A stretch of 64,000 nt of DNA from assembly GCA_025359905.1 (NCBI GenBank), contig JANYDF010000113.1:124001-188000 (forward strand). Reading direction: 5' to 3'. Numbering within the stretch: position 1 is the first letter of the stretch; each line of letters begins with the position of its first letter. This document shows positions 46,628 to 63,918 of this stretch, in pieces. The translations under genes and the position numbers were made by a program. The stretch comes from Rhodospirillales bacterium (GTDB lineage: Bacteria; Pseudomonadota; Alphaproteobacteria; Acetobacterales; Acetobacteraceae). The notes beneath the pieces are model-generated. The model was given only the letters and a program-made list of their open reading frames with translations. It did not search any database and was not told the DNA's origin.

Positions 46628-47260
46628 ATGAAACGCCGCATCCTGCTCGCCAGCGCGCTGTCCGTGTTTGCCCGCAACGCCCGCGCCGCCGACGCGGTGC
46701 TGGGCGCGCAAGACCGCGCCGATATTGCGCGGATCGAGAATTATCTGGACGGGTTGCGCACGCTGAAGGCCCGCTTCCTGCAAATCGCGCCGGACGGCAG
46801 CACCAGCCAGGGCACCACCTGGATGGACCGGCCCGGCAAGATGCGCTTTCAGTACGACCCGCCGAGCCCGCTGCTGCTGGTGGCAGGCCACGGACTGTTC
46901 GTGTTCTACGACCGGCAATTGAAGCAAATCAGTAACTTGCCGCTCGGCCAGACGCCGCTGGGTTTGTTGCTGCGCGAGAATTTGCGGCTGTCCGGCGACG
47001 TCACCGTCAGCGAGGTCTACCGGGAACCGGGCGAAATCCAGGTCAGCCTGACCCGCACCAGCAGCCCCGGCGATGGCAGCATTACGCTGGTATTCGCCGA
47101 CAAGCCGCTGGCGCTACGGCAATGGTCGGTGTTCGACGGCCAGCGCCAGGAAACCCGGGTCAGCCTGTTCGAGATCCAGACCGGCGGCAGCTTCGACCCG
47201 GATATGTTCACGTTCGTCGATCCGAAAGTCGTTCCGGGCGGGGATAAATACTACCAATAG
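46628..47260 (+). CDS. LolA-like outer-membrane lipoprotein carrier protein
   Basis: A 210-residue periplasmic protein with a signal peptide (residues 1-20, ARAAD). The LolA fold pattern is visible: YLDGLRTLKARFLQI, GTTWMDRPGKMRFQYDPPSPLLLVAGHGLFVFYD, and GLLLRENLRL. Family members ferry lipoproteins from the inner to the outer membrane. It is short and complete, with no LolB or FtsK neighbour. It follows the reductase gene by 42 bp on the same strand. Confidence 0.88.
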   Translation: MKRRILLASALSVFARNARAADAVLGAQDRADIARIENYLDGLRTLKARFLQIAPDGSTSQGTTWMDRPGKMRFQYDPPSPLLLVAGHGLFVFYDRQLKQISNLPLGQTPLGLLLRENLRLSGDVTVSEVYREPGEIQVSLTRTSSPGDGSITLVFADKPLALRQWSVFDGQRQETRVSLFEIQTGGSFDPDMFTFVDPKVVPGGDKYYQ

Positions 47261-47335
47261 CGGCGGCGGGCTCCGATTGCTGCACCGCAAAAACAGCTTC
47301 ATTTTTTTTTCACGATGCCCGATCATGTTCTTCTC

Positions 47336-48109
47336 ATGAAACCGCTCGTTGGCATCTCCTGCTGCACCAAGCTGTTCGGCCTGTATGGCATGGCCAACCA
47401 TGCCGCGTCGGACACCTATATCCGCGCCACCGATCTCGTGGTCGGCGCGGTGCCGGTGCTGGTGCCCGCCAACGGAGAGACCTGCGATATCGCAACGTTG
47501 CTGGCGCGGCTCGATGGGCTGATTCTCACCGGCAGCCGCTCCAACGTGCAACCCGCTGCGTATGGCGGCCCGGCGCATCCGGACGGCACGCCGGAGGACA
47601 CCAAGCGCGACGCGGTGACGCTGCCGCTGATCCGCGCGGCCATTGCCGCTGGTTTGCCAGTGCTGGCCATCTGCCGGGGGTTGCAGGAATTAAATGTCGC
47701 ACTCGGCGGCTCGCTGCACCAGCGGCTGCAAGACCTCCACGGCCGCATCGACCATTCCACGCCGTTGCAACCCTCGTCCAAAGTGCGCACCGGCAAGGCG
47801 CACGCGGTGCGCGTCGTGCCCGGCAGTTGGCTGCACCGGGTGGCGGGCGCGCGGGACATCCCGGTCAACTCGCTGCACAATCAGGGCATCGACCGGCTGG
47901 CTCCTGGCCTCGTGGTCGAAGGCACCGCGCCGGACGGCACCGTCGAGGCAGTTCGCGTGGCCAGCGCCCCCGGATTTGCGGTGGGGGTGCAATGGCACCC
48001 GGAATACGACTGGCAGCACGACGCCGTGTCGCGCCGTATTTTTGAGGCGTTCGGCAACGCGGTGGCCGAACGGCTGTCGCCCGGCGCACGCGCTGCGGCG
48101 GCGGACTGA
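47336..48109 (+). CDS. Gamma-glutamyl-GABA hydrolase-like class I amidotransferase
   Basis: A 257-residue peptidase C26 protein (PuuD-like). The nucleophile Cys lies in LAICRGLQELNVALGG, and the His-Glu pair in GVQWHPEYD. In PuuD the enzyme frees GABA from gamma-glutamyl-GABA; here no polyamine genes are near, so the substrate is open. The start at 47336 (MKPLVGISCC) fits the family; ATG 47315 would add seven residues. Neither has a clear ribosome-binding site. The upstream run of nine T (47302-47312) may belong to a terminator of the LolA gene. Confidence 0.87.
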   Translation: MKPLVGISCCTKLFGLYGMANHAASDTYIRATDLVVGAVPVLVPANGETCDIATLLARLDGLILTGSRSNVQPAAYGGPAHPDGTPEDTKRDAVTLPLIRAAIAAGLPVLAICRGLQELNVALGGSLHQRLQDLHGRIDHSTPLQPSSKVRTGKAHAVRVVPGSWLHRVAGARDIPVNSLHNQGIDRLAPGLVVEGTAPDGTVEAVRVASAPGFAVGVQWHPEYDWQHDAVSRRIFEAFGNAVAERLSPGARAAAAD

Positions 48110-48111
48110 CG

Positions 48112-48771
48112 CTACTCGAAAGCGTTCGCCGCCGGACCGCGAATCATCGCCAAAAATTCGCGCCGCGTCGCCGGATCGTCGCGGAAGGCACCGAGCATCC
48201 GGCTGGTCACCATCGAGACGCCCGGCTGGTGCACGCCGCGCGTGGTCATGCACTGGTGCCCAGCCTCGATCACCACCGCGACGCCGCGCGGCTGCAATAC
48301 GTCCTTGATGGTGTTGGCGATCTGCGCCGTCAGCTTTTCCTGAATTTGCAGCCGCTTCGAATAGGCTTCGACCACGCGGGCCAGCTTGCTGATGCCAACC
48401 ACCCGCCTATCCGGCAAGTAAGCCACGTGGGCGCGCCCGACGATGGGCACCATATGGTGCTCGCAATAGCTTTCCACGCGAATGTCGCGCAGCACGACCA
48501 TCTCGTCGTATCCGTCGGTTTCGTCGAAGGTCCGCTCCAGCAGCGCGACCGGATCGGTATGGTAGCCGGCGAAGAATTCCTCGTACGACCGCACCACGCG
48601 CGACGGGGTATCGAGCAGCCCTTCGCGGGCCGGGTCGTCGCACGCCCAGCGCAACAGCGTGCGAACGGCCGCCTCCGCTTCCTCGCGGGTTGGGCGGCTT
48701 GTTGCGTCGGCCTTCCCAGCCTTCTCGTTGGTCGAGGTGATCACGTTCACCGTTCTGTATCTTCCTGACAT
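48112..48771 (-). CDS. folE: GTP cyclohydrolase I
   Basis: A 219-residue FolE. Zinc ligands are Cys103, His106 ([10 protein letters not shown]) and Cys174 (GHQCMTTRG), matching E. coli Cys110/His113/Cys181. [23 protein letters not shown] is the other signature. It converts GTP to dihydroneopterin triphosphate, the first step of folate synthesis. The start at 48771 follows AGGA; a GTG at 48750 is the alternative. It meets the convergent amidotransferase gene at a 2-bp gap. Confidence 0.96.
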
Positions 48772-48838
48772 CACACGTCCTACGGACCCGCCCCGTATCG
48801 ACCGATGTGGGGGGGAGGTCAATCTCCACAAGGCACAC

Positions 48839-49243
48839 TCAGTGCAATCGTCCACCCTGATGCGGGCTGTCCAAACTGAACGCTGGAATCACCACATCGA
48901 ACGGCTCACCGGTCTGCGTCCATATCATGTGATACGCGCCAGACATAAATCCAGTTGGCGTATCGAGTGGTGTGCCGGAGGTGTATTCGAAACGCCCGCC
49001 CGGCTTCAGCACTGGCTGCTGGCCGATGACGCCGGGGCCGTGCACACGCTGCACACGTCCCCGCGCATCGGTGATTTCCCAGGTGCGCAGCATCAGCTGC
49101 GCCTCCCCGGTCCCCGTGTTCGTTATGCGGACGCGATAAGCCCACACGTACTTGCCCGCGTCCGGCTCGGACTGCTCCGGCAGAAAGAAACTGCGCACGG
49201 TCACGGCGATGCCGTACGTCGTTTGGGTGTAACCGTCGTCCAT
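48839..49243 (-). CDS. apaG: ApaG protein
   Basis: A 134-residue ApaG domain protein: [52 protein letters not shown] and GFMSGAYHM are all present. ApaG has a fibronectin-III fold and is linked to cobalt/magnesium resistance in enterobacteria, with no proven biochemical role. The start at 49243 begins the conserved part; the frame open to 49471 overlaps metZ and is rejected. It lies 43 bp downstream of metZ, a pairing common in alphaproteobacteria. Confidence 0.94.
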
Positions 49244-49286
49244 TGCGGCTATCAGACCGGCAGAATTGCCCAGCTGTCTAGCCCCG

Positions 49287-50483
49287 CTATGCCGAATCTC
49301 GCATGCCGGCCAGCGCCCCAGCCAAATCGTCAAGCAGGTCGGCGGCGTCCTCCAATCCGACCGACAGGCGCACCACGCCGTCGCCAATTCCCAGCCGCGC
49401 CCGCTCCTCGGCACCGATGCGCATGTGCGTGGTGGTGGCAGGATGGGTAGCCAGCGACTTCGAGTCGCCAAGATTGTTGGAAATCTTCACCAGCCGCAGC
49501 GCGTTCATCACCTTGAACGCGGCGTCCTTGCCGCCGGCGACATCGAAGGTCACCAGCGAGCCGCCAGCCGACATTTGCGACATCGCCAGCCGATGCTGCG
49601 GGTGATCGCTGCGCTCGGGGTACAGCACCCGCACGATGCCCGGCTGAGCGGCAAGGAAATCAGCCACGGCTCCGGCGCTGGCGGTGGCGGCGTTGACACG
49701 CAAGGGCAGCGTCTCCAGCCCTTTCAGCAGCATCCATGCATTGAACGGCGACAGCGCCGGGCCGGTGTTGCGGATGAACGGCTGCAACGTGTCTTCGATC
49801 CATTTGCGCGGGCCTAGCACGGCGCCGCCCAGCACGCGGCCCTGACCGTCGATGTGCTTGGTACACGAATAGATTACGATGTCCGCGCCGAGCGTCAGCG
49901 GCTGTTGCAGCAACGGCGTGGCGAACACATTGTCGACCGCCACAAGGGCGCCGGCCTTATGAGCGAGCTCGCTGACCGCCGCGAGGTCGATGATGTCCAG
50001 CATCGGGTTGGACGGCGTTTCCAGCAGCACCATCTGAGTGGGCTTGGAAAGCGCCGTGCGCCACTGCTCCAGATCGCCGCCATCGACGAACACGCCTTCG
50101 ATGCCGTAGCGCGGCAGCAGCGTGGAGACGATCCAGTGGCACGAGCCGAACAGCGCGCGCGAAGCCACCAGCCGGTCGCCACGCTTCAGATGGCTCATCA
50201 ACGTCGCGTGAACTGCGGCCATGCCGGTGGCGGTCACCCGGCACGCCTCGGCGTTTTCCAGTAGCGCCAGGCGCTGTTCCAGCATCACCACCGTTGGGTT
50301 GCCGAACCGCGAATACTGGTAGTGCTGCACGGTGCCGACGAAGGTCGCCTCGGCCTGTTCGGCGTTGTCGTAGACAAAGCCCGAGGTGAGAAACAGCGCT
50401 TCGGATGTTTCGCCGTACGGCGTTCGCTCGGTGCCACCATGCACCAGCAATGTCGCGGGACGGAAACGGGGAGGAACGGTCAT
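49287..50483 (-). CDS. metZ: O-succinylhomoserine sulfhydrylase
   Basis: A 398-residue PLP enzyme of the Cys/Met metabolism family. The cofactor Lys is Lys209 in IVIYSCTKHIDG; YQYSRFGNPTVVMLEQRLALLE and ETPSNPMLDIIDL are typical of MetZ. It makes homocysteine from O-succinylhomoserine and sulfide, so it consumes the sulfide produced by cysI (30713). Upstream (50484-50700) I saw no convincing SAM riboswitch. Confidence 0.95.
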   Translation of the reverse strand: MTVPPRFRPATLLVHGGTERTPYGETSEALFLTSGFVYDNAEQAEATFVGTVQHYQYSRFGNPTVVMLEQRLALLENAEACRVTATGMAAVHATLMSHLKRGDRLVASRALFGSCHWIVSTLLPRYGIEGVFVDGGDLEQWRTALSKPTQMVLLETPSNPMLDIIDLAAVSELAHKAGALVAVDNVFATPLLQQPLTLGADIVIYSCTKHIDGQGRVLGGAVLGPRKWIEDTLQPFIRNTGPALSPFNAWMLLKGLETLPLRVNAATASAGAVADFLAAQPGIVRVLYPERSDHPQHRLAMSQMSAGGSLVTFDVAGGKDAAFKVMNALRLVKISNNLGDSKSLATHPATTTHMRIGAEERARLGIGDGVVRLSVGLEDAADLLDDLAGALAGMRDSA

Positions 50484-50711: not shown

Positions 50712-50785
50712 GCGGGTGTAGTTCAATGGTAGAACGGCAGCTTCCCAAGCTGCATACGAGGGTTCGATTCCCTTCACCCGCTCCA
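50712..50785 (+). tRNA. tRNA-Gly(CCC)
   Basis: A complete cloverleaf of 74 nt with encoded CCA. Acceptor GCGGGTG pairs with CACCCGC, the D arm holds TTCAATGGTAGAA, the anticodon arm is GCAGC-TTCCCAA-GCTGC, and the T arm AGGG-TTCGATT-CCCT. The loop TTCCCAA gives anticodon CCC, reading GGG. It lies between metZ and the bcs-like locus. Confidence 0.97.
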
Positions 50786-50912: not shown

Positions 50913-52244
50913 GTGGCCGACACAGTCAACGCCGACACACTGAACGCTGACCGCATCAACGACGACGTAGACCGCGCGGCGGCGGCGTTCGGCGGCGGCC
51001 CTTTCCACTACCGCACATTCAGTCCCGTCAGAATCGGGCCGGCAATGGTTGGGGAACGCTTGGCCGGGGCCATGACAATCCCCGCAAGGCAGGCTGGCGA
51101 CGTGGGAGGGCGGGCCGGTGTGGAACAATTCGCCGACGGCATGGCCGCGGAAGGAACGGTCAAGATCGGGAGCGCCCGGATATGGCCGGCCAACCGGACC
51201 GGGCTGATGGCCCGCGCGGCGGCCCCCCGCGCGGTGGACCCAGTGCCGCCAGCCGAAAGTAGCCCGGGCGCCACATCATTCCCATCGCCGGAGGCTGCTC
51301 CCGCAACTGCGGTATCCGAGCCGGTCGCGGCGCCACCGCCGGCCATCGTCTCCAACTTGTTGCTTGCCCCGCCAGAGTTGCCGCCGGCGCCGTTGGCGGA
51401 AACTGTCGAATCGGAACGCGCCGAACCGGAATTGGCTGCGCCAGCGCCGCCCGAACCACCACCGGCAGAGGCAGAAGTCTGCGAGCCGGGGCCAGCCGAG
51501 CCTGAGTTGGCCGAACCTGAGTTGGCCGAACCTGAGTTTGCCGGGCCGGAATTAGCTACGCCGCAAGCCGCGTTGCCCGAAACGGCGGTGGAGGCGGCAG
51601 CTTTCCCCGCATCGCCCGATCCGGTGGAGCGCGCGCCCAGCCTGGATTCGCCAACATTGGACGATCCCATGTTGGACGAACCGGCGTTGCACCAGCCGGA
51701 GACGGCAGAAACCAGTGCCGCCAAGGTATCGCCGCCGCAATTGATCGGGCCGGGCTTTCCCACTTTGGTCGATACCCTGCCCAATATTCCGCTCAGCGAG
51801 TTTGTTGAACCGCCGCTGGCACAGACCGCGTTGGCGCTGTCACCTGGCTTCAGCTTGGCTGACCGGGTCATAGCCGCCGCATCCGCGCTGCCTGCGGCCC
51901 CGGCTGTAGCATTCGCCCCAGCGCTACAGCCCGCCGGCCAGCCGGTCGATCGGCCAGCATTCACTATGGCGCTCCTCTTTGCGGAGCCGGGTGTCTTTGC
52001 AGCCCCGCCAATGCGTGCTTGGCCTCAATCACCACCGCCATTGCGCCGCCCGCCGGAACGGCCAGCCAGCCCGTCGCGTGCGGATCAACAGGCACTGCAA
52101 ATGAACTGGGGCAACGCCGATGGCGCAGATAGTCCGGCGACCGACGTGCCAGCGTTCGAACCCATCGCCGTCCAAGCTGTGGCGGCCCCGGTTCCGCCAC
52201 CTGCCGCCGCCCTCGACGAGTCCGCACTCTTCCGCCGGCTTTGA
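50913..52244 (+). CDS. Proline/alanine-rich protein, candidate BcsH/CcpAx-like
   Basis: A 443-residue low-complexity protein directly upstream of bcsAB. A GTG at 50913 with GGGAGAG 4 bp upstream is the chosen start; ATGs at 50790 and 50820 lie farther up without good sites. The only order-like part is the N-terminus: AAAAFGGGPFHYRTF at residues 22-36. As I recall it, CcpAx/BcsH of Komagataeibacter has a similar F-G...Y-R-x-F element at the same distance from its start and the same position before bcsAB; there it forms a scaffold with BcsD. The rest is Pro/Ala/Glu-rich with PELAE repeats and no membrane segment. Homology is inferred. Confidence 0.6.
   Translation: MADTVNADTLNADRINDDVDRAAAAFGGGPFHYRTFSPVRIGPAMVGERLAGAMTIPARQAGDVGGRAGVEQFADGMAAEGTVKIGSARIWPANRTGLMARAAAPRAVDPVPPAESSPGATSFPSPEAAPATAVSEPVAAPPPAIVSNLLLAPPELPPAPLAETVESERAEPELAAPAPPEPPPAEAEVCEPGPAEPELAEPELAEPEFAGPELATPQAALPETAVEAAAFPASPDPVERAPSLDSPTLDDPMLDEPALHQPETAETSAAKVSPPQLIGPGFPTLVDTLPNIPLSEFVEPPLAQTALALSPGFSLADRVIAAASALPAAPAVAFAPALQPAGQPVDRPAFTMALLFAEPGVFAAPPMRAWPQSPPPLRRPPERPASPSRADQQALQMNWGNADGADSPATDVPAFEPIAVQAVAAPVPPPAAALDESALFRRL
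51501..51545 (+). repeat. Three 15-bp coding repeats
   Basis: Two identical copies of CCTGAGTTGGCCGAA and a third differing copy, encoding PELAE-PELAE-PEFAG in the BcsH-like protein. Confidence 0.9.
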
Positions 52245-52283: not shown

Positions 52284-52423
52284 TGCAGAAACGGGCATTG
52301 CAGCAGCAGCGCGCCGCCACTGCCGCGCGGCGCGGGCGGCGGGCCGGCAGCAGGACGTTGAGCGACATGCATTTATTGCGACCAGTCATCGCAATCGGCC
52401 CAGCCGCAAGCCCGCAAGCATGA
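52284..52423 (+). CDS. Possible 46-residue upstream ORF, coupled to bcsAB
   Basis: A basic Gln/Arg/Ala-rich frame, MQKRALQQQRAATAARRG at its start. Its TGA overlaps the ATG of bcsAB (ATGA at 52420-52423), a layout typical of translational coupling. A weak AGG precedes its start, while bcsAB itself has no good ribosome-binding site. I know no homologue. It may be a chance frame in GC-rich sequence. Confidence 0.3.
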
Positions 52424-55400
52424 CGGCTGCGAATCGCGCCGCTGTCCGCTTGGCCGCCGCCGATGCCGCGATGGCCGGTCTTGGGCTGTTGCTATTGCTG
52501 GGCATCGCCAGCGTTCCGCTCGATGCCAGCCAGCAGGTCTGGTTCGGGGCCGGCGCGTTGCTGCTGTCCCTGGCGCTGAACCGCCGGCCTGGGCGATTTG
52601 TCAGTGTGCTGCTGGTGACGATCTCGCTCGCAGTCACCGGGCGTTACGTTTTTTGGCGGCTTAGCGAAACGCTGCAATTCGACACGTGGCTGGAGGCCAT
52701 CCTCGGCACCGGACTGCTGCTCGCCGAGGCGTATGCGGCGGTAATGCTGCTGCTGGATTATCTGCAAAATGCCTGGCCGCGCGGCCGCCAACCGCGCGCG
52801 TTGCCGGACGACCCGGGGAATTGGCCGGTGGTGGATGTATTCATCGCCACTTTCAATGAGCCGCTGCCCAGCGTGCGCGCCACCGTGCTGGCGGCGATGC
52901 TGATGGATTGGCCGCAGGGCAAGTTGCACGTGCATATCGTCGACCGCGCCAAGCGGGACGATGTGCACAATTTCGCAGTCGAAGCTGGCTGCAGCTACCT
53001 TACCGAACGGAGGACCCAGCCGCGCGGGCTCGACCGCAATCCGCTGGATATGCTGCCCAGCAGGGCCGACACGCTGAACGCGGCACGCGGACAAACGACC
53101 GGCCCGTTCATCGCCGTGTTCGACTGCGGCCATATCCCGACCCGCGCCTTTCTACAGTTCACGCTGGGTTGGCTGGCGGCAGATTCCAATTTGGCCTTGG
53201 TGCAAACGCCGCGCTATTGCTACCTCGCCGATCCGTTCCAACGCAGCCTCGCCGACGAAACGCGCGTGCCGCCGCAAGCCAATCTGGTCGAAGGCTTGCT
53301 GCAAGACGCCAGCGATGCGTGGGGGGCAACACTCTTCTGCGGCTCGGGCGCCGTATTGCGCCGCAGCGCACTCGACGCAGCGCGCGGGTTTGCTCTTGAA
53401 CCGGCGAGCGCCGATGCGATCACCACGTTCCAGTTGCACCGGCTCGGCTGGGATAGCGCTTACTTGCGCTGGCCGCTCGCCGCCTGGACGCGCGCTGAGT
53501 CGCTGGCGCAGTTCATCGGGCGGCGCCAGTTGCAGGTGCGCGGCATGTTGCAATTGCTGCGCCTGCACAACCCGCTGATAGCGCGCGGCCTAACCATGGG
53601 CCAGCGGCTCTGCTACGCCCAGGGCATCACGCAAGCGCTGTTCGCGCTGCCCCGGCTGACGTTCCTGACGGCACCGCTGGCCTACCTGCTGCTGGGCCAG
53701 ACCATCATTCCTGCCGCCCCGCTGGCCGTGGCTGCCTACGCGCTGCCGCATTTGGCGCTGGCAGTGGCGGCCCGGTCGCGGCTGCGCGGCCGCTGGCGGC
53801 ACGCGTTCTGGACGCCGGTGTATGAATTGGCGCAGGCGCCGTTCATGCTCCGCACGGCGTTTGAAGCGCTCATTCGGCCACAGCGGCCGGCCACCGTGCT
53901 CACCGCGCCACCGGCCGCACCGGTCGGCAGCAACAAATTTGCGGGCGATACCAAGGCCCAAGTGCGCGCGGCACTGCCGCAACTGTTTCTGGCGACGCTG
54001 CTGAGCGCCGGCATTCTGCGCGGCTTGGTCGGCATTGCGCTATCCGGCGGCGAATCGCTTGGATCCCAGGCGATGTTGCTGAACACCGCCTGGGCCTGCG
54101 CCAGCTTGCTCACCGTGCTGGCCGTGCTGGCAGCCCGTGGTGAGGCGCCCGAAGGCATGAACGCCGTTCCCGCAGCGCTGCCGGTCGACATCGTGTTGCC
54201 GGACGGGCGCAATCTGAGCGGCGAGAGCCAAACTCTGTCGCTCTCCGGCGGCAACCTGCTGGCGGCGCGGCCGATTGGCTTGATGGAAGGCGCCAGCCTG
54301 CGGCTGACGTTCACCATCGGCGGGACGCCGATATCGCTGACAGCTCGCGTCGCAAGCTGGGAAGCCAACGGCGCCTTGAATATCGAGTGGCGAACCGGAT
54401 CGCTGGACGACGAAGCGCGGCTGATCCGCGTCGTGTACGGCCGGGCCGACGCCTGGACCGGCTGGGCTGCGCAAGCGGCCGATAAGCCTTGGCTCAGCCT
54501 ATGGCGGCTGGCAAGCGCTGCGGGCGGGCTGTTCCGGCGGCGCAAGGCGGAGGTGGGCGGCGTGCTGCTGTGGGCGCTGCTGGCAACAGCGCCCGCGCTG
54601 GCGCAGCAAAATGCGCCGTCACCCAAGCCAGCAAGACCTGCGGTGAGCGGCATGACAGTGCGCGTGATCCCGCAAGCGATTGCGCCGCAAGGCTTGCCGA
54701 CGATTATTGAATCCGCGCCGCTGCCGCCGCTTCCCGCGCCAGCTCCGGCACCGCAGCCAGTGGCGCATCCCGTGGTCGCAACGCCTCCCGTTGCCGCTCC
54801 CACGGCAGCGGCGCCGGCCGCCGCTGAGCCAGTGATCCGCACCAGCGTGCGCCGGGCGGTCTATTCACTGCGGCAGCTCGGCGCGGCCGGGCCGCTGGCG
54901 CTGCGTGGCACGAACCCGATGCAAAGCGTCGCGTTCGGCGTGCGCGCCGATGAAGTGGTAACCTCGGCCAGGCTGACGTTGCGCGGCGCGCTGTCGCCAT
55001 CGCTGATCGCCGATGCCAGCAACATCACGGTGACACTGAACGACCAATTTGCCGGCACTATCCCGGTGACGCCCGATCAGCCGGCTTACGTGCTGGAAAT
55101 GCCAATCAGTCCGGTGTTCTTCCAAGACGCCAACCAGCTGAGTTTCCGCCTGACCGGACGGACCGCCGACGCCTGCAACGACCCGCTGAGCGGACTGCTG
55201 TGGGGCACGGTCTACGCCACCTCGACCCTGACGATGACCCTCGAACGGTTGCCGCCGCAGCGCGATCTGGCCCGCCTGCCGCAGCCGTTCTTCGATCCGG
55301 CCAGCCCGGAATTGCTGTCGCTGCCGTTCGTGCTGCCCGCCAGCCCCGGCAACGATGCGCTGCGCGCCGCCGGGATCGCCGCGTCATGGTTCGGCCAGCT

Positions 55401-56910
55401 TGCCGGGACGCGGGGCGCGAATTTCCCGGTGCTGTCCGAGCCGCCGCCGGAAGGCAACGCCGTGATTGTGGTCGCGGGTGACGCCAAGGATGCCGCCGGG
55501 CTGTCCGCCATTGGCGGCCCGACGCTCGCGGTCATCCCCAATCCGAACGACAGGTTGTCCAGCCTGCTGGTCATCGCCGGGCGCACCGGCGAGGAAGCCG
55601 TGGCAGCCGCCACGGCCCTAGCGGCAGGCAGCCGCACGCTGAGTTCGGCGCTAGCGCTGGTGCAAGCGCCGCCGCTCGCGGCCCGCCAGCCGTACGATGC
55701 GCCAGCGTGGATCGCCACCGACCGGCCGGTAAAGCTCGGTGAATTGGCCGGCGCGGCGGCATTGCAGTTCAGCGGCTATTCCGGGCAGTTGCATGTGCCG
55801 TTCCGGACTGCGCCGGATTTCTACACGTGGCGCGGGCGGCCCTTCGACTTGACGTTGCGCTATCGCGCGCCGGGCGCCCCGGCGATCGACCCCGGGCCAT
55901 CGCGGCTCGATGCCGGGTTGAACGGGGTCTATCTGGACACGCTGCCGCTGTCCGGCGGCGGGGGGTTGCTCAGCGCGCATGTCGCGGTGCCGCCCGGGAC
56001 GCTGACCGGCGCCAACGATCTGCAATTGATGTTCGACGCCCGGCCCGTTCGGCGCAGCGCTTGCGATACGCCGCCGCAAGACCTGCACATGGCCGTCAGC
56101 GCGGACAGCACCATCGACCTCAGCCGTGGCTACCGGTTCACCCAATTGCCAAATTTGGCGTTCTTCGTCAGCGCTGGTTTTCCGTTCACCCGCATGGCGG
56201 ACCTAGCAGAGACCGCGATCGTGCTGCCGGAGCGGCCGAGCGGAATCGAGTTGAGTGCGTTCCTCGGCCAAATGGGCCGATTCGGCGCGCTAACCGGCAC
56301 CCCCTCGGTCAGCGTGGCGGTGACTCGGCCCGACGGCATTGCCGCGTTCGCCGGGCGGGACGTGCTGCTGCTGGGCGCTGTGCAGCATCTTGGGACGGCG
56401 GCCGCCGCATTGCTGACCGAGTCGGCCGTGCGCCTCGACGGTGCGCAAGTGTCCGCAGCGGCGTCCGGGCTGGTCGAGCGCTTATTGGGCAACAGCGGCA
56501 GCGGCCAAGCGGCAGCGGCCCTGGGCAGCGGTCTGACCGGCGGTGCCGTGGCGCTCGCGGGGGGGCAAAGCCCTCTGGAACATGGACGATCCGTGGTCGC
56601 ACTGCTCGCTGCAACGCCTGAAGGGTTAGACAATGCGGGCACAATGCTGCGCGACCCGGCGCTGGCTGGGCAAGTTCAGGGCGATCTGGCGCTGTTCAAT
56701 GGCGGCAAAGTGTATTCGTATCGCGTGACAACGCCGTTCACGGTTGGCACGCTGCCCGTCTGGCTGTGGCCGTCTTGGTATTTGCGCGACCAACCGATCG
56801 GTCTGTTGCTGCTGATGCTGGCTGGGTCAGTGCTGTTCGCTGCTGGCTGTTACCGGGCGTTGCTACGGCGGCGGACCTCGCCGCCCGAGAGCGGCAACCC
56901 CAGGACATGA
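52420..56910 (+). CDS. bcsAB: BcsAB fusion, cellulose-synthase-like with degenerate catalytic motifs
   Basis: An intact 1496-residue fusion. Residues 1-710 resemble BcsA: membrane helices, then a GT2 core from VDVFIATFNEP (138-148). Yet key residues differ from active synthases: DDGG is D175-R-A-K, FDCDH is FDCGH (Gly237), HAKAGN is PSRADT (213-218), FCGSC is FCGSG (Gly310), TED is S330-A-D332, and QRIRW is RRQLQ (368-372). The PilZ region lacks RxxxR and has TLSLSG where (D/N)xSxxG is expected. A BcsB signal-like segment (712-728, APALA) joins the halves. The BcsB part keeps ADACNDPLSGLLW and RDLARLPQPFFDP and ends in a membrane helix. Expected role: inner-membrane part of a glycan export machine, probably without synthesis. 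Confidence 0.9.
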   Translation: MTAANRAAVRLAAADAAMAGLGLLLLLGIASVPLDASQQVWFGAGALLLSLALNRRPGRFVSVLLVTISLAVTGRYVFWRLSETLQFDTWLEAILGTGLLLAEAYAAVMLLLDYLQNAWPRGRQPRALPDDPGNWPVVDVFIATFNEPLPSVRATVLAAMLMDWPQGKLHVHIVDRAKRDDVHNFAVEAGCSYLTERRTQPRGLDRNPLDMLPSRADTLNAARGQTTGPFIAVFDCGHIPTRAFLQFTLGWLAADSNLALVQTPRYCYLADPFQRSLADETRVPPQANLVEGLLQDASDAWGATLFCGSGAVLRRSALDAARGFALEPASADAITTFQLHRLGWDSAYLRWPLAAWTRAESLAQFIGRRQLQVRGMLQLLRLHNPLIARGLTMGQRLCYAQGITQALFALPRLTFLTAPLAYLLLGQTIIPAAPLAVAAYALPHLALAVAARSRLRGRWRHAFWTPVYELAQAPFMLRTAFEALIRPQRPATVLTAPPAAPVGSNKFAGDTKAQVRAALPQLFLATLLSAGILRGLVGIALSGGESLGSQAMLLNTAWACASLLTVLAVLAARGEAPEGMNAVPAALPVDIVLPDGRNLSGESQTLSLSGGNLLAARPIGLMEGASLRLTFTIGGTPISLTARVASWEANGALNIEWRTGSLDDEARLIRVVYGRADAWTGWAAQAADKPWLSLWRLASAAGGLFRRRKAEVGGVLLWALLATAPALAQQNAPSPKPARPAVSGMTVRVIPQAIAPQGLPTIIESAPLPPLPAPAPAPQPVAHPVVATPPVAAPTAAAPAAAEPVIRTSVRRAVYSLRQLGAAGPLALRGTNPMQSVAFGVRADEVVTSARLTLRGALSPSLIADASNITVTLNDQFAGTIPVTPDQPAYVLEMPISPVFFQDANQLSFRLTGRTADACNDPLSGLLWGTVYATSTLTMTLERLPPQRDLARLPQPFFDPASPELLSLPFVLPASPGNDALRAAGIAASWFGQLAGTRGANFPVLSEPPPEGNAVIVVAGDAKDAAGLSAIGGPTLAVIPNPNDRLSSLLVIAGRTGEEAVAAATALAAGSRTLSSALALVQAPPLAARQPYDAPAWIATDRPVKLGELAGAAALQFSGYSGQLHVPFRTAPDFYTWRGRPFDLTLRYRAPGAPAIDPGPSRLDAGLNGVYLDTLPLSGGGGLLSAHVAVPPGTLTGANDLQLMFDARPVRRSACDTPPQDLHMAVSADSTIDLSRGYRFTQLPNLAFFVSAGFPFTRMADLAETAIVLPERPSGIELSAFLGQMGRFGALTGTPSVSVAVTRPDGIAAFAGRDVLLLGAVQHLGTAAAALLTESAVRLDGAQVSAAASGLVERLLGNSGSGQAAAALGSGLTGGAVALAGGQSPLEHGRSVVALLAATPEGLDNAGTMLRDPALAGQVQGDLALFNGGKVYSYRVTTPFTVGTLPVWLWPSWYLRDQPIGLLLLMLAGSVLFAAGCYRALLRRRTSPPESGNPRT

Positions 56911-56920
56911 GGAGGGCGCG

Positions 56921-59812
56921 GTGAAAACTTCCAATTCGCAGCGCTCAACGCTCAGCGGCCGGGTCGCGCGGCGGCTGGTCATGCTCTGTCCGGCAGCCAT
57001 GTTCATTGTCACGATCTGGCTGGTGCTGCCACCGGGCGCGGCGCCGCGCTCCGCCGCGCCGGCGCAGGCCGCAGGCGAACCGCAAACCGCTGCGGCTGCG
57101 ATGGCGACTGCACCCGACAGCCAAGCCGTTCCGCCAAGCGCGCTCAGCGTGCTGTTGCTGCGCGCGCGCTATTGGCGTGACCAACAGCAGTTCGATCAGG
57201 CATTGGTGAGTCTGGATCGGGCGCTCAGCTTGGCGCCGGATAGTGCCGAGGCATTGACCTTGCTGGCTGAAGTGCAGGCCGCGATTGGCAATGTGGCGGC
57301 GGCCGACGCGGCGCGCGCCCGGCTCTCGCACAGCATTGCCAATGCCACCGCCGCATCGCCCGCTGTGGCTACCCCAGTTGTGCCCGCCACCCCTTCGAAA
57401 GACACCCTGCTGGCTGAGGCGCAGGAACTGGCACGGGCAGGCAAGACCGGCGAGGCGTTGCAGCGCTATGACGCCGCACTGCAAGGCATCCCGCCGCCCG
57501 CCGCGTTCGCCGACGGCTACTACAAGACCTTGGCCGGCTCGCCGGACGGGTTAGATCGCTTGGCAAGTCTGACGCAGGATCCCGCCACGCCACCGCAGGC
57601 CACGCAGGCTTGGCGGCGCGCGTTGCTGGCACTGCCAGACGCACCTGAGTCGGCAGCGCCGATCAATGCCTATCTCGCACGGCATCCGGCAGACGGCGAG
57701 GTTGCCGCGAAACTTAACGCACGCCAGCAGCCGCAACCTCTGACGCCCCCGGCCGCCACCGCCGAGGCTGACACGGCCGAGGCTGCCACGGCTGGCGGAC
57801 TTGGGTTGCTTAAACTGCGCGAAAAGAAGCTCGACGAGGCCAAGAGGTTGCTGGCGCGGGCCATGCAGCTCGATCCGGCGCATCAAACCCGGTGGCAGCC
57901 GGCGTTGGCTGCCGCCAGCGCGCCGGCGACCGCCGCGCCGCCGGCGATCGCCGCGGCTAAGCCCCGTGCCGCACTTCGCGTCCCTGCCGCTGCCCCTGCA
58001 TCAGCTTCTGCGCCCATCGCGGCCGCCCCTGCGGTGTTTGACAATCAACCCATGGCCATCGCGACGGCGTTACCAGATGACGACGCCCGGGCGACAAGCC
58101 TGGCCGGCGAGGCCCGGCTGCGCCGCCACCCAGGCGACCCGGAAGCGTGGCGCGCCGCCATTTCCGAGGCCTTGCTGCGCGGCGACCGCGAAGCTGCTGG
58201 CGTGCTGCTGCGCGACGGTCTGATCGTCTCGCCCAATGAACCCAGCCTGTGGGTCCAGTCGGCCGAATTGGCGGAGGCCTACGGCGACGTCGGCCGGGCG
58301 ATGCGCGACCTGCGCCGCGCCCGAGAGTTGCGCACGCAGCAGCTTGGCGAAACCGCCGCCGGTGATCCGGCGGCAAGTCTAGCGGTGCCGCCTTTGCTGC
58401 AGGCTGAGCAGGCTGCTCCGTTTACCCCGCAACAGATAACTGCGGCGGGACGGCCTCCGGCCTATCAACCAAGTGCTACGGAACGGCCGCCGCAGCGTGG
58501 CTTGCTCGACCTGCATGCCGCACCCATCACCGCACCGGTCGCGGGCAGCCGCCTGGCGCCGGCAGCCAACGATCCGCTGACCCGCGAGATCGATAGTTCG
58601 ATGGCACTACTGCAAGGCCTCACGCCACCGAGCGGCGCGCAGTCCGCTGAAGCAGCGTCCGCTGAGGCAGCGTCCGCTGTCGCAGCGGACAAGAACGAAC
58701 ATAGTGCCCCGGCGCTGGGTTTGCAGACCGGCGTGACGCTCCGCGCGCGCGACGGCAATTCAAGCCTGGACCGCCTGGGTGAACTCGCGATGCCGTTGGA
58801 AGCGTCCTACTCGCGCGACGGGTTTGGCCGGCTGAAATTCAGCGCGATACCCACCGCGCTGTATGGCAGCGCGCCCAACGGCGCGGCGCAGCGCTTCGGC
58901 AGCACCGCGCTCGGCATGGCTGGCTCAGCCGCCGGACGCCAATCAGCCGAAGGTGTCGGGCTGGCCCTGGCGTTCAGCGTGCCCAGCCTGACCGTGGACG
59001 CAGGCACCACGCCGCTGGGTTTTCGGACCGAAAATGTGGTGGGCGGGGTGAATTGGACCCCGCAACTCTCTGACCACGCCCGGCTGCAAGTCAGCGCTGA
59101 GCGCAGGGCGGTCACCGACAGCGTGTTGTCATATGCCGGAGCCGCCGACCCGCGCACCGGCGAGGTTTGGGGCGGCGTGACGCGCGCACGCGGCGGACTG
59201 AAAGCCACGTTCGACGTGGGGCCAGCCGAGATTTACGCCAGCGGCGGGTTCAGTGTGCTGACCGGCACTCATGTGCAGAACAACACTGGTTTCGACCTGG
59301 GAGCCGGTGGCAGCCTGCCGGTGTACAAGACGTCAACGCAAGAATTGCGCGCCGGACTCGATCTTATATATTTCGGATACAAAAATAACGCGCGGTATTA
59401 CACATTCGGTCAGGGCGGCTACTTCAGTCCGCAATCCTACATGGCGGCAATGTTACCGGTAACTTACCGCTATCAGGTCAACCCAGACCTTTCCTACGAG
59501 GCCAGCGCGGCCGTCGGGCTGCAAACGTTCCGCGAAGGCGCATCGCCCTACTTCCCAGCCGACGCATCCCTGCAAGCGCAACTTGCCGCCCAGCAGGCCA
59601 ATCCTGCCACCGCCGTGCCGGGCGCGCAGACGGCATACAGCGCCCGCCGCCAGACCGGTGTCGCAGGCAACGCGCATTTGTCCGCCGACTACCGCGTGTC
59701 CGCCGGCCTGCATCTGGGGGCCGAACTGGACTACGCGCGGATGGGGGATTTCGACAGTGCGCGGGCAATGCTGTTCGCCCGCTACCTGTTCAACACGCCG
59801 GGCCAACCGTAA
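56921..59812 (+). CDS. bcsC: BcsC-like outer-membrane TPR/porin protein
   Basis: A 963-residue protein starting with GTG after GGAGGG (56911-56916), 10 bp behind bcsAB. A signal-type segment (residues about 19-47) leads into TPR-like helices (LLRARYWRDQQQFDQALVSL; LLKLREKKLDEAKRLL; LREDP-type repeats to about 480). From TREIDSSMALL (about 562) on comes the BCSC_C beta-barrel domain, with LEASYSRDGFGRLKF and GYKNNARYYTFGQGGYFSPQSY well kept. BcsC normally guides cellulose through the periplasm and outer membrane. At 963 residues it is shorter than usual BcsC (1100-1300), mainly through fewer TPRs and Ala/Pro linkers. Confidence 0.88.
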   Translation: MKTSNSQRSTLSGRVARRLVMLCPAAMFIVTIWLVLPPGAAPRSAAPAQAAGEPQTAAAAMATAPDSQAVPPSALSVLLLRARYWRDQQQFDQALVSLDRALSLAPDSAEALTLLAEVQAAIGNVAAADAARARLSHSIANATAASPAVATPVVPATPSKDTLLAEAQELARAGKTGEALQRYDAALQGIPPPAAFADGYYKTLAGSPDGLDRLASLTQDPATPPQATQAWRRALLALPDAPESAAPINAYLARHPADGEVAAKLNARQQPQPLTPPAATAEADTAEAATAGGLGLLKLREKKLDEAKRLLARAMQLDPAHQTRWQPALAAASAPATAAPPAIAAAKPRAALRVPAAAPASASAPIAAAPAVFDNQPMAIATALPDDDARATSLAGEARLRRHPGDPEAWRAAISEALLRGDREAAGVLLRDGLIVSPNEPSLWVQSAELAEAYGDVGRAMRDLRRARELRTQQLGETAAGDPAASLAVPPLLQAEQAAPFTPQQITAAGRPPAYQPSATERPPQRGLLDLHAAPITAPVAGSRLAPAANDPLTREIDSSMALLQGLTPPSGAQSAEAASAEAASAVAADKNEHSAPALGLQTGVTLRARDGNSSLDRLGELAMPLEASYSRDGFGRLKFSAIPTALYGSAPNGAAQRFGSTALGMAGSAAGRQSAEGVGLALAFSVPSLTVDAGTTPLGFRTENVVGGVNWTPQLSDHARLQVSAERRAVTDSVLSYAGAADPRTGEVWGGVTRARGGLKATFDVGPAEIYASGGFSVLTGTHVQNNTGFDLGAGGSLPVYKTSTQELRAGLDLIYFGYKNNARYYTFGQGGYFSPQSYMAAMLPVTYRYQVNPDLSYEASAAVGLQTFREGASPYFPADASLQAQLAAQQANPATAVPGAQTAYSARRQTGVAGNAHLSADYRVSAGLHLGAELDYARMGDFDSARAMLFARYLFNTPGQP
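58643..58687 (+). repeat. Three 15-bp coding repeats in bcsC
   Basis: Three near-identical copies of TCCGCTGAAGCAGCG encoding SAEAA-SAEAA-SAVAA in the linker before the beta-barrel domain. Confidence 0.9.
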
Positions 59813-59817
59813 CCGGG

Positions 59818-60483
59818 CTACTCCGCCGCACTGCGCAACGCCGACCCAGCCGCCAGCGGGCAAAGCGGTATCGCGGCCGCAAGCAGAGCGGCCAGCAGCA
59901 ACAGATGCGGCCGCGCGGTCAGCCCGCCGCTGGCGGCGTCCGCCGCGCCCACGCCGAAAATCAACACCGGCACAGTCAGCGGCAGCACCAGCAACGGCAG
60001 CAGCACGCCGCCGCGCCGCGCGCCGAGCACAATGGCGGCACCGACGGTGCCGAACAGGCTCAGCAGCAGCGTGGCGGGCAGCAGGCCGAGCAACAGCACC
60101 GGCAACGCGTCGTCGTTGATCCGCAGCATCGTGGCGATGGGGGCGGCGGCGATCAGCAGCGGCAGGCCGGTGGTCAGCCAGTGCGCGGCGGATTTGGCCA
60201 GCGCCACCAGCGGCGCAGGCAGGCCAGACAGTAGCAGGTGATCGAGCGAGCCATCCTCCAGATCGGCGCCGAACAGCCGGTCGAGCGGCAGCAGGGCGGC
60301 GAGCAGCGCGCAGACATAGACAATGCCGGGCGCCATGCGGCCGAGGGTTTCCGGGGCCGGGCCGATGGCCAGCGGAAACAGGGCTGCGGCCAGCACGAAG
60401 AACAGCAGGGCCGCGACGGTATCACTGCCGTGGCGCAGCGACAGGCGCAGTTCGCGCCGCAGGACGATCAGGAACATGCCCAT
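59818..60483 (-). CDS. ccmB: Heme exporter protein CcmB
   Basis: A 221-residue permease with six membrane helices; FLIVLRRELRLSLRHGSDTVAALLFFVL, FPLAIGPAPETLGRMAPGI and FGADLEDGSLDHLLLSGLP are CcmB signatures. It works with CcmA and CcmC in loading heme onto CcmE for c-type cytochromes. The ATG shares a base with the ccmA stop (TGATG). It ends 5 bp from the convergent bcsC; no ccmC or ccmD follows. Confidence 0.95.
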   Translation of the reverse strand: MGMFLIVLRRELRLSLRHGSDTVAALLFFVLAAALFPLAIGPAPETLGRMAPGIVYVCALLAALLPLDRLFGADLEDGSLDHLLLSGLPAPLVALAKSAAHWLTTGLPLLIAAAPIATMLRINDDALPVLLLGLLPATLLLSLFGTVGAAIVLGARRGGVLLPLLVLPLTVPVLIFGVGAADAASGGLTARPHLLLLAALLAAAIPLCPLAAGSALRSAAE

Positions 60484-61079
60484 CACGCCAGCGCCAGTTC
60501 GCCGGCATCCGGCAACGGCAACGGCAAATGCGTCGCCGCCAGCACCACGCCGCCGCCTGCCCGATGTTGCGCCAACATGCTGCCGAACCGTTCCACCGAC
60601 GCGGTATCCAGCCCCAGCGTCGGTTCGTCCAGTAGCCAAATCGCCGCTGGGCGCAGGACCAGCCTTGCCAGCGCCAGCCGCCGCCGCTGCCCAGCCGACA
60701 GCATCTTGGCTGGCAGATCGGCAAGCTGGGTTAATCCCACCGCCGCCAGGGCGGGCTCCAGCGCCACGCGATTGCCCCACACCGCGAGATTTTCCGCCAC
60801 CGTCAGGCCGGGTTTGATCGCGTCCAGATGGCCGACATAGGTCACCCGCGCCGCGTGTTCGGCGAGATCGGCGAACACGTCCTGACCGCCCCACAGCAAC
60901 CGCCCGGCCTCGGCGCGCACCAGCCCCGCGATCAGTCGCAGCAATGTGCTTTTGCCCGATCCGTTCGGCCCGACCAGCAACAGCGCGCCGCCGTTCGCCA
61001 CCTTGAACGACAGCCCGGCAAACACCAGCCGCTCACCCCGGAATGCCGCCAGCCCGTCCGCTTCCAACACCCGGCACAT
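60483..61079 (-). CDS. ccmA: Heme exporter ATP-binding protein CcmA
   Basis: A 198-residue ABC ATPase: Walker [35 protein letters not shown] (typical of CcmA), signature [14 protein letters not shown] and Walker [13 protein letters not shown]. It powers release of heme-loaded CcmE during cytochrome c maturation at the inner membrane. It is divergent from acnA with a 151-bp gap, an order shared by many alphaproteobacteria. Confidence 0.96.
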
Positions 61080-61230
61080 TCCCCTTGCTGCGCTGCATCA
61101 AATACGGCGAACGGCGAGTGGACCCGCCGCCGCCGCTGTGGTTAAAGCCATCCGCCGGTAACAAACACCGCCCGCCCGCCGCGTGGAATACCTCGCGGCC
61201 CGCCGCTGGGCGCATAGAGGGCTTCGCCGC

Positions 61231-63918
61231 ATGAAAGCAATCGGGCAGGACACCCTGAACACCCGCCGCACGCTGACGGTGGAGGGACGGGACTATGAGT
61301 ATTTCTCCCTGCCCGAAGCCGCCAAGACGCTTGGCGACATTTCCCGCCTGCCGGTCAGCCTGAAAGTGCTGTTGGAAAACGTGCTGCGGTTCGAGGACGG
61401 GCATACCTACCATGTCGCCGACGCGCAGTCGGTGGCCGATTGGCTGAAGGCCGCGTCGTCGGCCAACGAAGTGCCGTTCAAGCCCGCCCGCATCCTGATG
61501 CAGGACTTTACCGGCGTTCCCGCCGTGGTCGATCTCGCGGCGATGCGTGACGGCATCCTGCGGCTCGGCGGCAACCCGGCGCAGGTGAACCCGCTGGTGC
61601 CGGTCGATCTGGTGATCGACCATTCGGTGATGGTGGACGTGTCGGCCACGCCCGATTCGCTGCAAAAGAACGTCGAAATCGAGTTTGAGCGCAACGCCGA
61701 GCGCTACACGTTTCTGCGCTGGGGCCAGACCGCGTTCGACAATTTCCGCGTCGTGCCGCCCGGCACCGGCATCTGCCATCAGGTCAACCTGGAATATCTG
61801 GCCCAGGCGGTGTGGACCGCCGAGTTGGACGGCCACACCTTTGCCTATCCGGACACGCTGTACGGCACCGACAGCCACACCACCATGGTCAATGGCATGG
61901 GCGTGCTGGGCTGGGGCGTCGGCGGGATCGAGGCGGAGGCGGCCATGCTGGGCCAGCCGATCGCCATGCTGATCCCGGACGTGATCGGCGTCCGGCTGAC
62001 CGGCAAGCTGCCCGAGGGGGCGACGGCGACCGATCTGGTGCTGACCGTCACCCAGATGCTGCGCAAGCACGGCGTCGTCGGCAAGTTTGTTGAATTCTAT
62101 GGCCCCGGTCTGGAAGACCTGCCGCTGGCCGACCGTGCCACCATCGCCAACATGGCGCCGGAATACGGTGCCACCTGCGGCTTCTTCCCGGTGGACAAGC
62201 ACACGCTGACCTATCTGCATCTGTCGGGACGCGACACCCACCGCATCGCGCTGGTGGAAGCCTATTGCCGCGCGCAGGGCATGTGGCATGACGCCGAAAC
62301 GCCGGACCCGGTGTTCACCGCCACGCTGGACCTCGATCTGTCCTCGGTGCTGCCGAGCCTGGCCGGCCCGAAGCGGCCGCAGGACCGGGTGCTGCTGAAG
62401 GACGCATCCACCGCGTTGCAGACCGAACTGACCAAAAGCCTGGGCGTGGCCGCCGATGCGCTCGGCACCAGGGCCGCGGTGGCCGGGACCAATTACGAGA
62501 TCGGCCATGGCGACGTGGTGATCGCGGCCATTACCTCCTGCACCAACACCTCCAACCCGTCGGTGCTGGTGGCCGCCGGACTGGTGGCGCGCAAGGCCCG
62601 CGCGCTGGGGCTGACGCCGAAGCCGTGGGTGAAGACCTCGCTGGCGCCCGGCTCCCAGGTGGTGACCGAGTATCTCGACCGCGCCGGGCTGACCGAGGAC
62701 CTCGACGCGCTGGGCTTCAACACGGTGGGCTATGGCTGCACCACCTGCATCGGCAATTCCGGCCCGCTGCCGGACGCCATTGTCGACGCCATTGAGGACA
62801 ACAAGCTGGTCGCGGTGTCGGTGCTGTCGGGCAACCGCAATTTTGAGGGCCGGGTGCACGCCAACGTGCGCGCCAACTACCTCGCCTCGCCGCCGCTGGT
62901 GGTGGCGTATGCGATCCTCGGCACCATGACCGTGGACATCAGCACGGCACCGCTCGGCACCGGCAAGGACGGCAAGCCGGTGTTCCTGAAGGACATCTGG
63001 CCCAGCAATCAGGAAATCGCGGCACTGGTCGCCGCCAGCCTGACCCGGGCGCAGTTCCTGGCGCGCTACGGCGAGGTGTTCAAAGGCCCGCAGCAGTGGC
63101 AGGCCATCGCGGTGGAAGGCGGCTCCAGCACCTATCGCTGGCAGCCGGGCAGCACCTACGTGAAGAACCCGCCGTATTTCGACGGGATGACCATGGAGCC
63201 GGCCGCCAAGGGCGACATCAAAGGGGCGCGCATCCTAGCGGTGCTGGGCGACAGCATCACCACCGACCACATCAGCCCGGCCGGCAACATCAAGAAATCC
63301 TCGCCCGCCGGTGAGTTCCTGCTGGAGCATCAGGTTCGCCCGGCCGACTTCAACAGCTACGGCGCGCGGCGCGGCAACGACGAGGTGATGGTGCGCGGCA
63401 CCTTCGCCAACATCCGCATCAAGAACGAGATGCTGGGCGGCGTGGAGGGCGGCCTGACGCGCTACGCGGGCCAGGAGATGCCGATCTACGACGCGGCGCG
63501 GCGCCATGCGGCGGACGGTGTGCCACTGGTGGTGATCGGCGGCAAGGAATACGGCACCGGGTCGTCACGCGACTGGGCGGCCAAGGGCACCATGCTGCTG
63601 GGCGTGAAGGCGGTGATCGTGGAAAGCTTCGAGCGCATCCACCGCTCCAACCTCGTTGGCATGGGCGTGCTGCCGTTGACCTTCAAGGACGGCATGGACC
63701 GCAGGAGCCTCGGCCTGACCGGCGAGGACGTGCTGGACATCGTCGGGCTGGACGATCTGCGCCCGCGCATGGATTTGTCGCTGGTGATCCATCGCCCGGA
63801 TGGCTCGGTGGACACGGTGCCGGTGCTGTGCCGCGTCGATACGCTGGATGAGGTGGCGTATTACCGCCACGGCGGCATTCTGCACTACGTGCTGCGCGGC
63901 ATGGCCAAGGCGGCCTGA
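61231..63918 (+). CDS. acnA: Aconitate hydratase A
   Basis: An 895-residue aconitase of the AcnA/IRP type. Cluster ligands are Cys437 ([10 protein letters not shown]), Cys503 and Cys506 ([10 protein letters not shown]), matching E. coli Acn[31 protein letters not shown] and [11 protein letters not shown] complete the active site. It interconverts citrate and isocitrate in the TCA cycle. The ATG at 61231 begins the conserved [15 protein letters not shown]; the frame open to 61183 is not used. Confidence 0.98.

Follow-up and report, generated by a model that had tools for sequence, protein, structure and literature searches.

The bcs locus and its accessory parts

The window, by which we mean the whole 64,000-nucleotide stretch of DNA that was analysed (contig C63, 124001–188000), contains three co-oriented open reading frames on the forward strand between a tRNA-Gly gene (50712–50785) and ccmB/ccmA-like genes. 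They encode a proline-rich protein (50913–52244), a BcsA-BcsB fusion (52420–56910) and BcsC (56921–59812). The fusion gene comprises 1496 codons without an internal stop, and in its 1496-residue product the GT2 domain, as used in the residue counts, spans residues 134–400 (52819–53619) and the BcsB half residues 815–1484 (54862–56871). Homology to BcsA extends over the whole chain, and the gene is linked to bcsB and bcsC. The BcsB half matches the Pfam BcsB profile with 528.9 bits (cut-off 21). The NCBIfam model TIGR03030 (CelA) gives the protein 522.5 bits, below its cut-off of 699.1, which is also narrowly missed, with 685.9 bits, by the canonical-motif homologue from the one further genome of the genus in the comparison (L015 in the metagenome-assembled genome G001, hereafter the congener). 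The neighbours assigned by Pfam on either side (46628–50483 and 59818–63918) are ordinary: LolA, peptidase C26, GTP cyclohydrolase I, an ApaG domain, a Cys/Met-metabolism enzyme, CcmB, a CcmA-like ABC ATPase and aconitase.

BcsC consists of a TPR part and an outer-membrane barrel, and its match to Pfam BCSC_C reaches 307.7 bits (cut-off 23.5). The barrel retains 53 of the 58 residues that are invariant in 14 other sequences, and that of the congener 56; these sequences were left from 19 loci after four without a match and one ending at a contig end (L072) had been set apart.

The proline-rich protein has 443 residues when read from a chosen GTG start, with DDVDRAAAAFGG at the N-terminus and LFRRL at the C-terminus, and has no Pfam or NCBIfam match. 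An N-terminal DDVDRA..AFGG and the C-terminal LFRRL are common to it and the corresponding protein of the congener, and similar ends occur at L076 (3 of the 21 loci scanned). The window and congener proteins could be aligned by MAFFT, but the blastp match between them covers only 5 residues. In excerpts of PMC11470070, proline-rich BcsP and BcsH are described as recruiting BcsD, and the N-terminus of BcsP is likened to BcsR, which contacts BcsA. The BcsR-like N-terminus of the window protein is a short motif only, with no profile match, and the co-occurrence with BcsD looked for in BcsP/BcsH is not seen, there being no PF03500 match in either genome of the genus (G000 and G001). We suggest that this protein is related to BcsP/BcsH, and it may be a partner of that kind. 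BcsD and GH8 are both absent from the two genomes of the genus and both present in seven of the eight other family genomes searched; the eighth (G092) likewise has neither, and in an unrooted tree it branches beside the genus. The two genomes of the genus contain 5 and 3 GGDEF matches, compared with 8–14 in four relatives.

Active-site substitutions in the BcsA half

The fusion was aligned with 18 family homologues and the congener; twenty regions had been requested, one of which was too short (L055) and another of which ended inside bcsAB (L079). A preliminary description of this DNA had listed the GT2 motifs as mutated, and the translation of 52420–56910 together with the alignment columns of DDG, DxD, TED, QxxRW and FFCGSC bears this out. 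The DDGx of the relatives is replaced by DRAK (residues 175–178; 52942–52953), DCDH by DCGH with loss of the second Asp of DxD (residues 235–238; 53122–53133), TED by SAD (residues 330–332; 53407–53415) and QRxRW by RRQLQ (residues 368–372; 53521–53535). With the relatives as reference the substitutions are D176R, G177A, D237G, T330S, E331A, Q368R, R371L and W372Q. The window protein also reads LFCGSG (F-C-G-S-G310) where the 18 homologues mostly have FFCGSC. None of DDG, DxD, TED and QxxRW, by which BcsA is recognised, is thus complete. The earlier wording was too strong for TED, where Thr and Glu are replaced but the Asp remains.

Further features escaped that description. An insert of about 12 codons, absent in the 18 relatives and the congener and positioned by the alignment, lies at residues 198–209 (53011–53046), and PSRADT replaces HAKAGN at residues 213–218 (53056–53073); the first position of this motif is not invariant among 54 homologues, 32 having His and 22 Gly. 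The gating loop at residues 490–501 (53887–53922) is degenerate and FxVTxK is gone through F492T, V494L and K499A, the last of these subject to the alignment of a 2-residue insertion. The PilZ linker at residues 574–590 (54139–54189) has no c-di-GMP arginine motif. Retained, on the other side, are D175 (the first Asp of DDG), D235, H238 and D332. According to excerpts of PMC10592267, BcsA becomes inactive when Phe503 is exchanged for Ala or Ile and is likewise inactive with Ala or Arg in place of Lys508, and Arg382 within QxxRW is critical; T492, A499 and L371 are the window residues aligned with these three.

Altogether 13 of the 19 core GT motif residues are lost, the motif sets having been chosen by us from known BcsA motifs. 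A compensated frameshift was rejected as the cause at the six motif blocks other than the gating loop, where the other two frames are without the motifs. Structure prediction by AlphaFold with two-row alignments gave mean pLDDT values of 40.1 and 39.0 and was set aside, and the hydropathy of the protein is too crude for argument.

Gene order and neighbours at the congener locus match those of the window. Its BcsAB (L015:1447–6078) carries canonical DDG, HAKAGN, DxD, TED, QxxRW and FxVTxK, the last as FDVTAK; it has lost the PilZ arginine motif too, and has FSGTG in place of FCGSC. Possibly, this protein synthesises cellulose without being controlled by c-di-GMP. Its BcsA half is also unusually fast-evolving.

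Distribution of the motif loss and constraint on the two halves

BcsA matches were found in 182 of 397 family genomes, and 54 homologues were read, some of them second copies within one genome and a few of them remote (28–33% identity). DDG with D176 is intact in all 53 that have sequence there (one row is truncated), and D237, E331, Q368, R371 and W372 of DxD, TED and QxxRW are intact in 54 of 54. None of the 54 shares the window substitutions, with the genus represented by one other genome, so that an outcome which the preliminary description had named as refuting its reading was obtained. As far as these sequences can tell, and on present data, the active-site loss is specific to the window lineage.

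Some relatives carry two BcsA copies. The window genome (4.63 Mb, 162 contigs, 97.6% complete) gave one BcsA match by protein search, and the second, canonical bcsA that had been considered earlier was not found there. A 1560-residue GT2 frame on contig C20 was rejected as a second BcsA; by eye it resembles a multi-domain surface-sugar transferase. A scan for the Q..RW pattern among frames of at least 150 residues at the 18 loci with other PF13641 matches returned five matches, in frames of 171–320 residues. Among plasmids, 498 records matched by protein search, all below 60% identity; phage DNA gave no match. No inactive or degenerate BcsA was found among the matches listed from the open-access literature.

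Of the residues invariant in the 18 relatives, the window protein retains 156 of 242 in BcsA (congener 187), with 84 of 129 in the GT domain; the BcsB half retains 106 of its 115, compared with 103 in the congener. The earlier statement that the BcsB half and BcsC are well kept therefore holds, for BcsC as regards the barrel. When only invariants that the congener retains are counted, the losses in the window protein are concentrated in the core GT motifs (13 of 19) versus 19 of 83 in the rest of the GT domain (p=0.00026); a wider motif set gives 14 of 25 versus 18 of 77 (p=0.0054). The two membrane parts have lost 5 of 27 and 13 of 42, the PilZ domain 5 of 16 and BcsB 6 of 103, and the non-core GT losses exceed those of BcsB (p=0.0009). 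Under the same free drift as the core residues, BcsB would be expected to show about 70 losses among its 103 residues (45 at the low 95% bound). The congener, counted in the same way over window-retained invariants, has lost 9 of 106 in BcsB.

The usual order of conservation is reversed in this pair. The mean identity among the 18 relatives is 67.6% in BcsA and 57.1% in BcsB, whereas the window and congener share 46.6% in BcsA and 62.9% in BcsB, so that BcsA is the more conserved half in the relatives and the less conserved one here. Excerpts of PMC7112194 likewise describe BcsA as less diverse than other Bcs subunits. On a fixed tree the terminal BcsA branches are 0.98 (window) and 0.715 (congener) substitutions per site versus at most 0.394 in the 18 others. 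The corresponding BcsB branches measure 0.36 and 0.31, with a maximum of 0.60 among the others.

Rate ratios were estimated with a custom codon-model script from 8 sequences; synonymous sites are saturated (branches of 4–5 neutral changes per codon), so the omega values are rough. With this saturation, omega in the GT domain is 0.138 for the window, 0.117 for the congener and 0.047 for the background. The window value is about three times the background, equality with which is rejected (p=1.5e-5), and a value of 1 is rejected as well (p=3.8e-22), although the estimate is a mean taken along the entire branch and suffers from the saturation; a ratio near 1, which the preliminary description had named as refuting its reading, is not seen. 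Window and congener do not differ in GT omega (p=0.58). In the membrane part after the GT domain the values are 0.164, 0.191 and 0.054 for window, congener and background, and omega of BcsB is not different from background (p=0.3).

Interpretation and comparison with known systems

Among the residues lost are ones with known roles in binding UDP, metal and acceptor, and the substitutions make it very probable that the window BcsA is inactive as a cellulose synthase. The earlier proposal of a pseudo-synthase stands in this respect, with the qualification that no orthologue shares the substitutions; the companion suggestion of a synthase with quite different chemistry found no positive support. 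It is also probable, at lower confidence, that the BcsA half is nevertheless kept by selection. Taken as a whole, the explanation that we prefer, and to which we give an even chance, is that a catalytically dead BcsA half persists as the membrane-inserted leading part of a BcsB-BcsC assembly that is still under selection. The concentration of losses at the active site, with BcsB and the BcsC barrel spared, fits a BcsA that has been freed from catalysis and is carried before a needed BcsB. Uniform decay of the whole gene was rejected, as it would affect the active site, the remaining GT residues and BcsB to a similar extent, which the BcsB and BcsC counts contradict.

The likely course, as we infer it, is a stepwise simplification in which accessories and PilZ control went first and catalysis later. 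The ancestor of the genus would already have been without PilZ c-di-GMP control, BcsD and the BcsZ hydrolase, and cellulose polymerisation would then have been lost in the window species. The congener BcsA is accelerated despite its canonical core motifs, with a GT omega like that of the window, and therefore the relaxation of BcsA began without loss of catalysis. The BcsA half would still be present as the membrane-inserted leading part of the chain that yields BcsB. In the last and least certain step, the selected BcsB and BcsC, perhaps with the BcsP-like protein, would persist as an envelope-spanning scaffold or an exit route for a different product, BcsA serving as inner-membrane front only; such a repurposing of the cellulose secretion machine after death of the synthase is put forward tentatively. 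No cargo or partner enzyme was identified.

Several observations run against the preferred explanation. The congener BcsA, with its canonical core motifs, is also accelerated, and the membrane part, though expected to be conserved in an anchor, is relaxed in window and congener alike, 13 of 42 invariants being lost in the window. Losses in the GT domain outside the core exceed those of BcsB, no orthologue is in the same state, D175, D235 and D332 are retained, and synonymous sites are saturated.

The alternative that survives best, although we consider it rather unlikely, is an ongoing loss of cellulose production, with the operon on its way out, the catalytic half going first and BcsB and BcsC yet to decay. 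It is favoured by the absence of BcsD and GH8 from both genomes of the genus, the loss of the PilZ motif in window and congener, the smaller number of GGDEF matches, the relaxation of BcsA in both lineages and the lack of any orthologue sharing the substitutions. The light losses in BcsB next to those in the GT core, the retention of the BcsC barrel and the unchanged omega of BcsB argue against it. The uninterrupted frame, confirmed over its full length, had been taken earlier as a sign against decay; it is weak evidence for this with bcsB fused downstream. Nor is it evidence that the GT domain works, because translation reaches bcsB through bcsA and a stop codon in the bcsA part would abolish bcsB as well.

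A GT domain that still works, on another substrate or as a non-processive transferase, appears improbable. Three widely spaced Asp (D175, D235 and D332) remain, only QxxRW and the second DxD Asp being missing on this reading, and GT omega is well below 1. Non-processive GT2 enzymes may be without QxxRW, and the absence of this motif from the window protein would agree with that. Against this, HAKAGN, R371, the second DxD Asp and the gating loop are all lost together, and with 84 of 129 GT invariants retained the three Asp would be kept by chance about one time in four. That a canonical BcsA lies in sequence missing from the assembly and the window copy is a spare is very improbable: the assembly is incomplete and fragmented and some relatives have two copies, but the genome holds a single BcsA match and the window gene occupies the position at which the congener has its one matched copy. 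An assembly or sequencing artefact, conceivable in a draft assembly, is extremely improbable in view of the 191-kb contig, on which the gene order to either side is that of the congener, and of the many in-frame changes within one open frame.

As a rule BcsA is better conserved than the other parts of the machine, and in the window fusion this order is reversed, the catalytic site being gone and BcsB held. The fusion thereby separates the secretion parts from synthesis in nature, and it offers a testable case for the role of BcsB and BcsC without a working synthase. The pattern suggests a machine kept for something other than cellulose making; a slow decay of the locus is less likely.

Among known systems the closest are the BcsA-BcsB fusions of the family, such as the plasmid copy of Kozakia baliensis and that of the congener, which are like the window fusion in domain order, in the BcsB half and in the bcsC downstream; the congener also has the same neighbours and a proline-rich frame upstream. 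These relatives differ in retaining DDG, HAKAGN (or GAKAGN), DxD, TED and QxxRW, and BcsD and GH8 are present as well in the majority of those searched. With pseudoenzymes in general (reviews PMC5106787 and PMC10211241) the window protein shares the loss of catalytic motifs alongside conservation of its partners and of much of the chain. The Orphan synthases of pseudomonads, as presented in excerpts of PMC10237404, resemble the window protein as BcsA-like proteins proposed to serve another purpose; they differ in being proposed as active cyclic beta-glucan synthases with a GH17 domain, whereas the window protein has lost its GT motifs and has BcsB fused to it.
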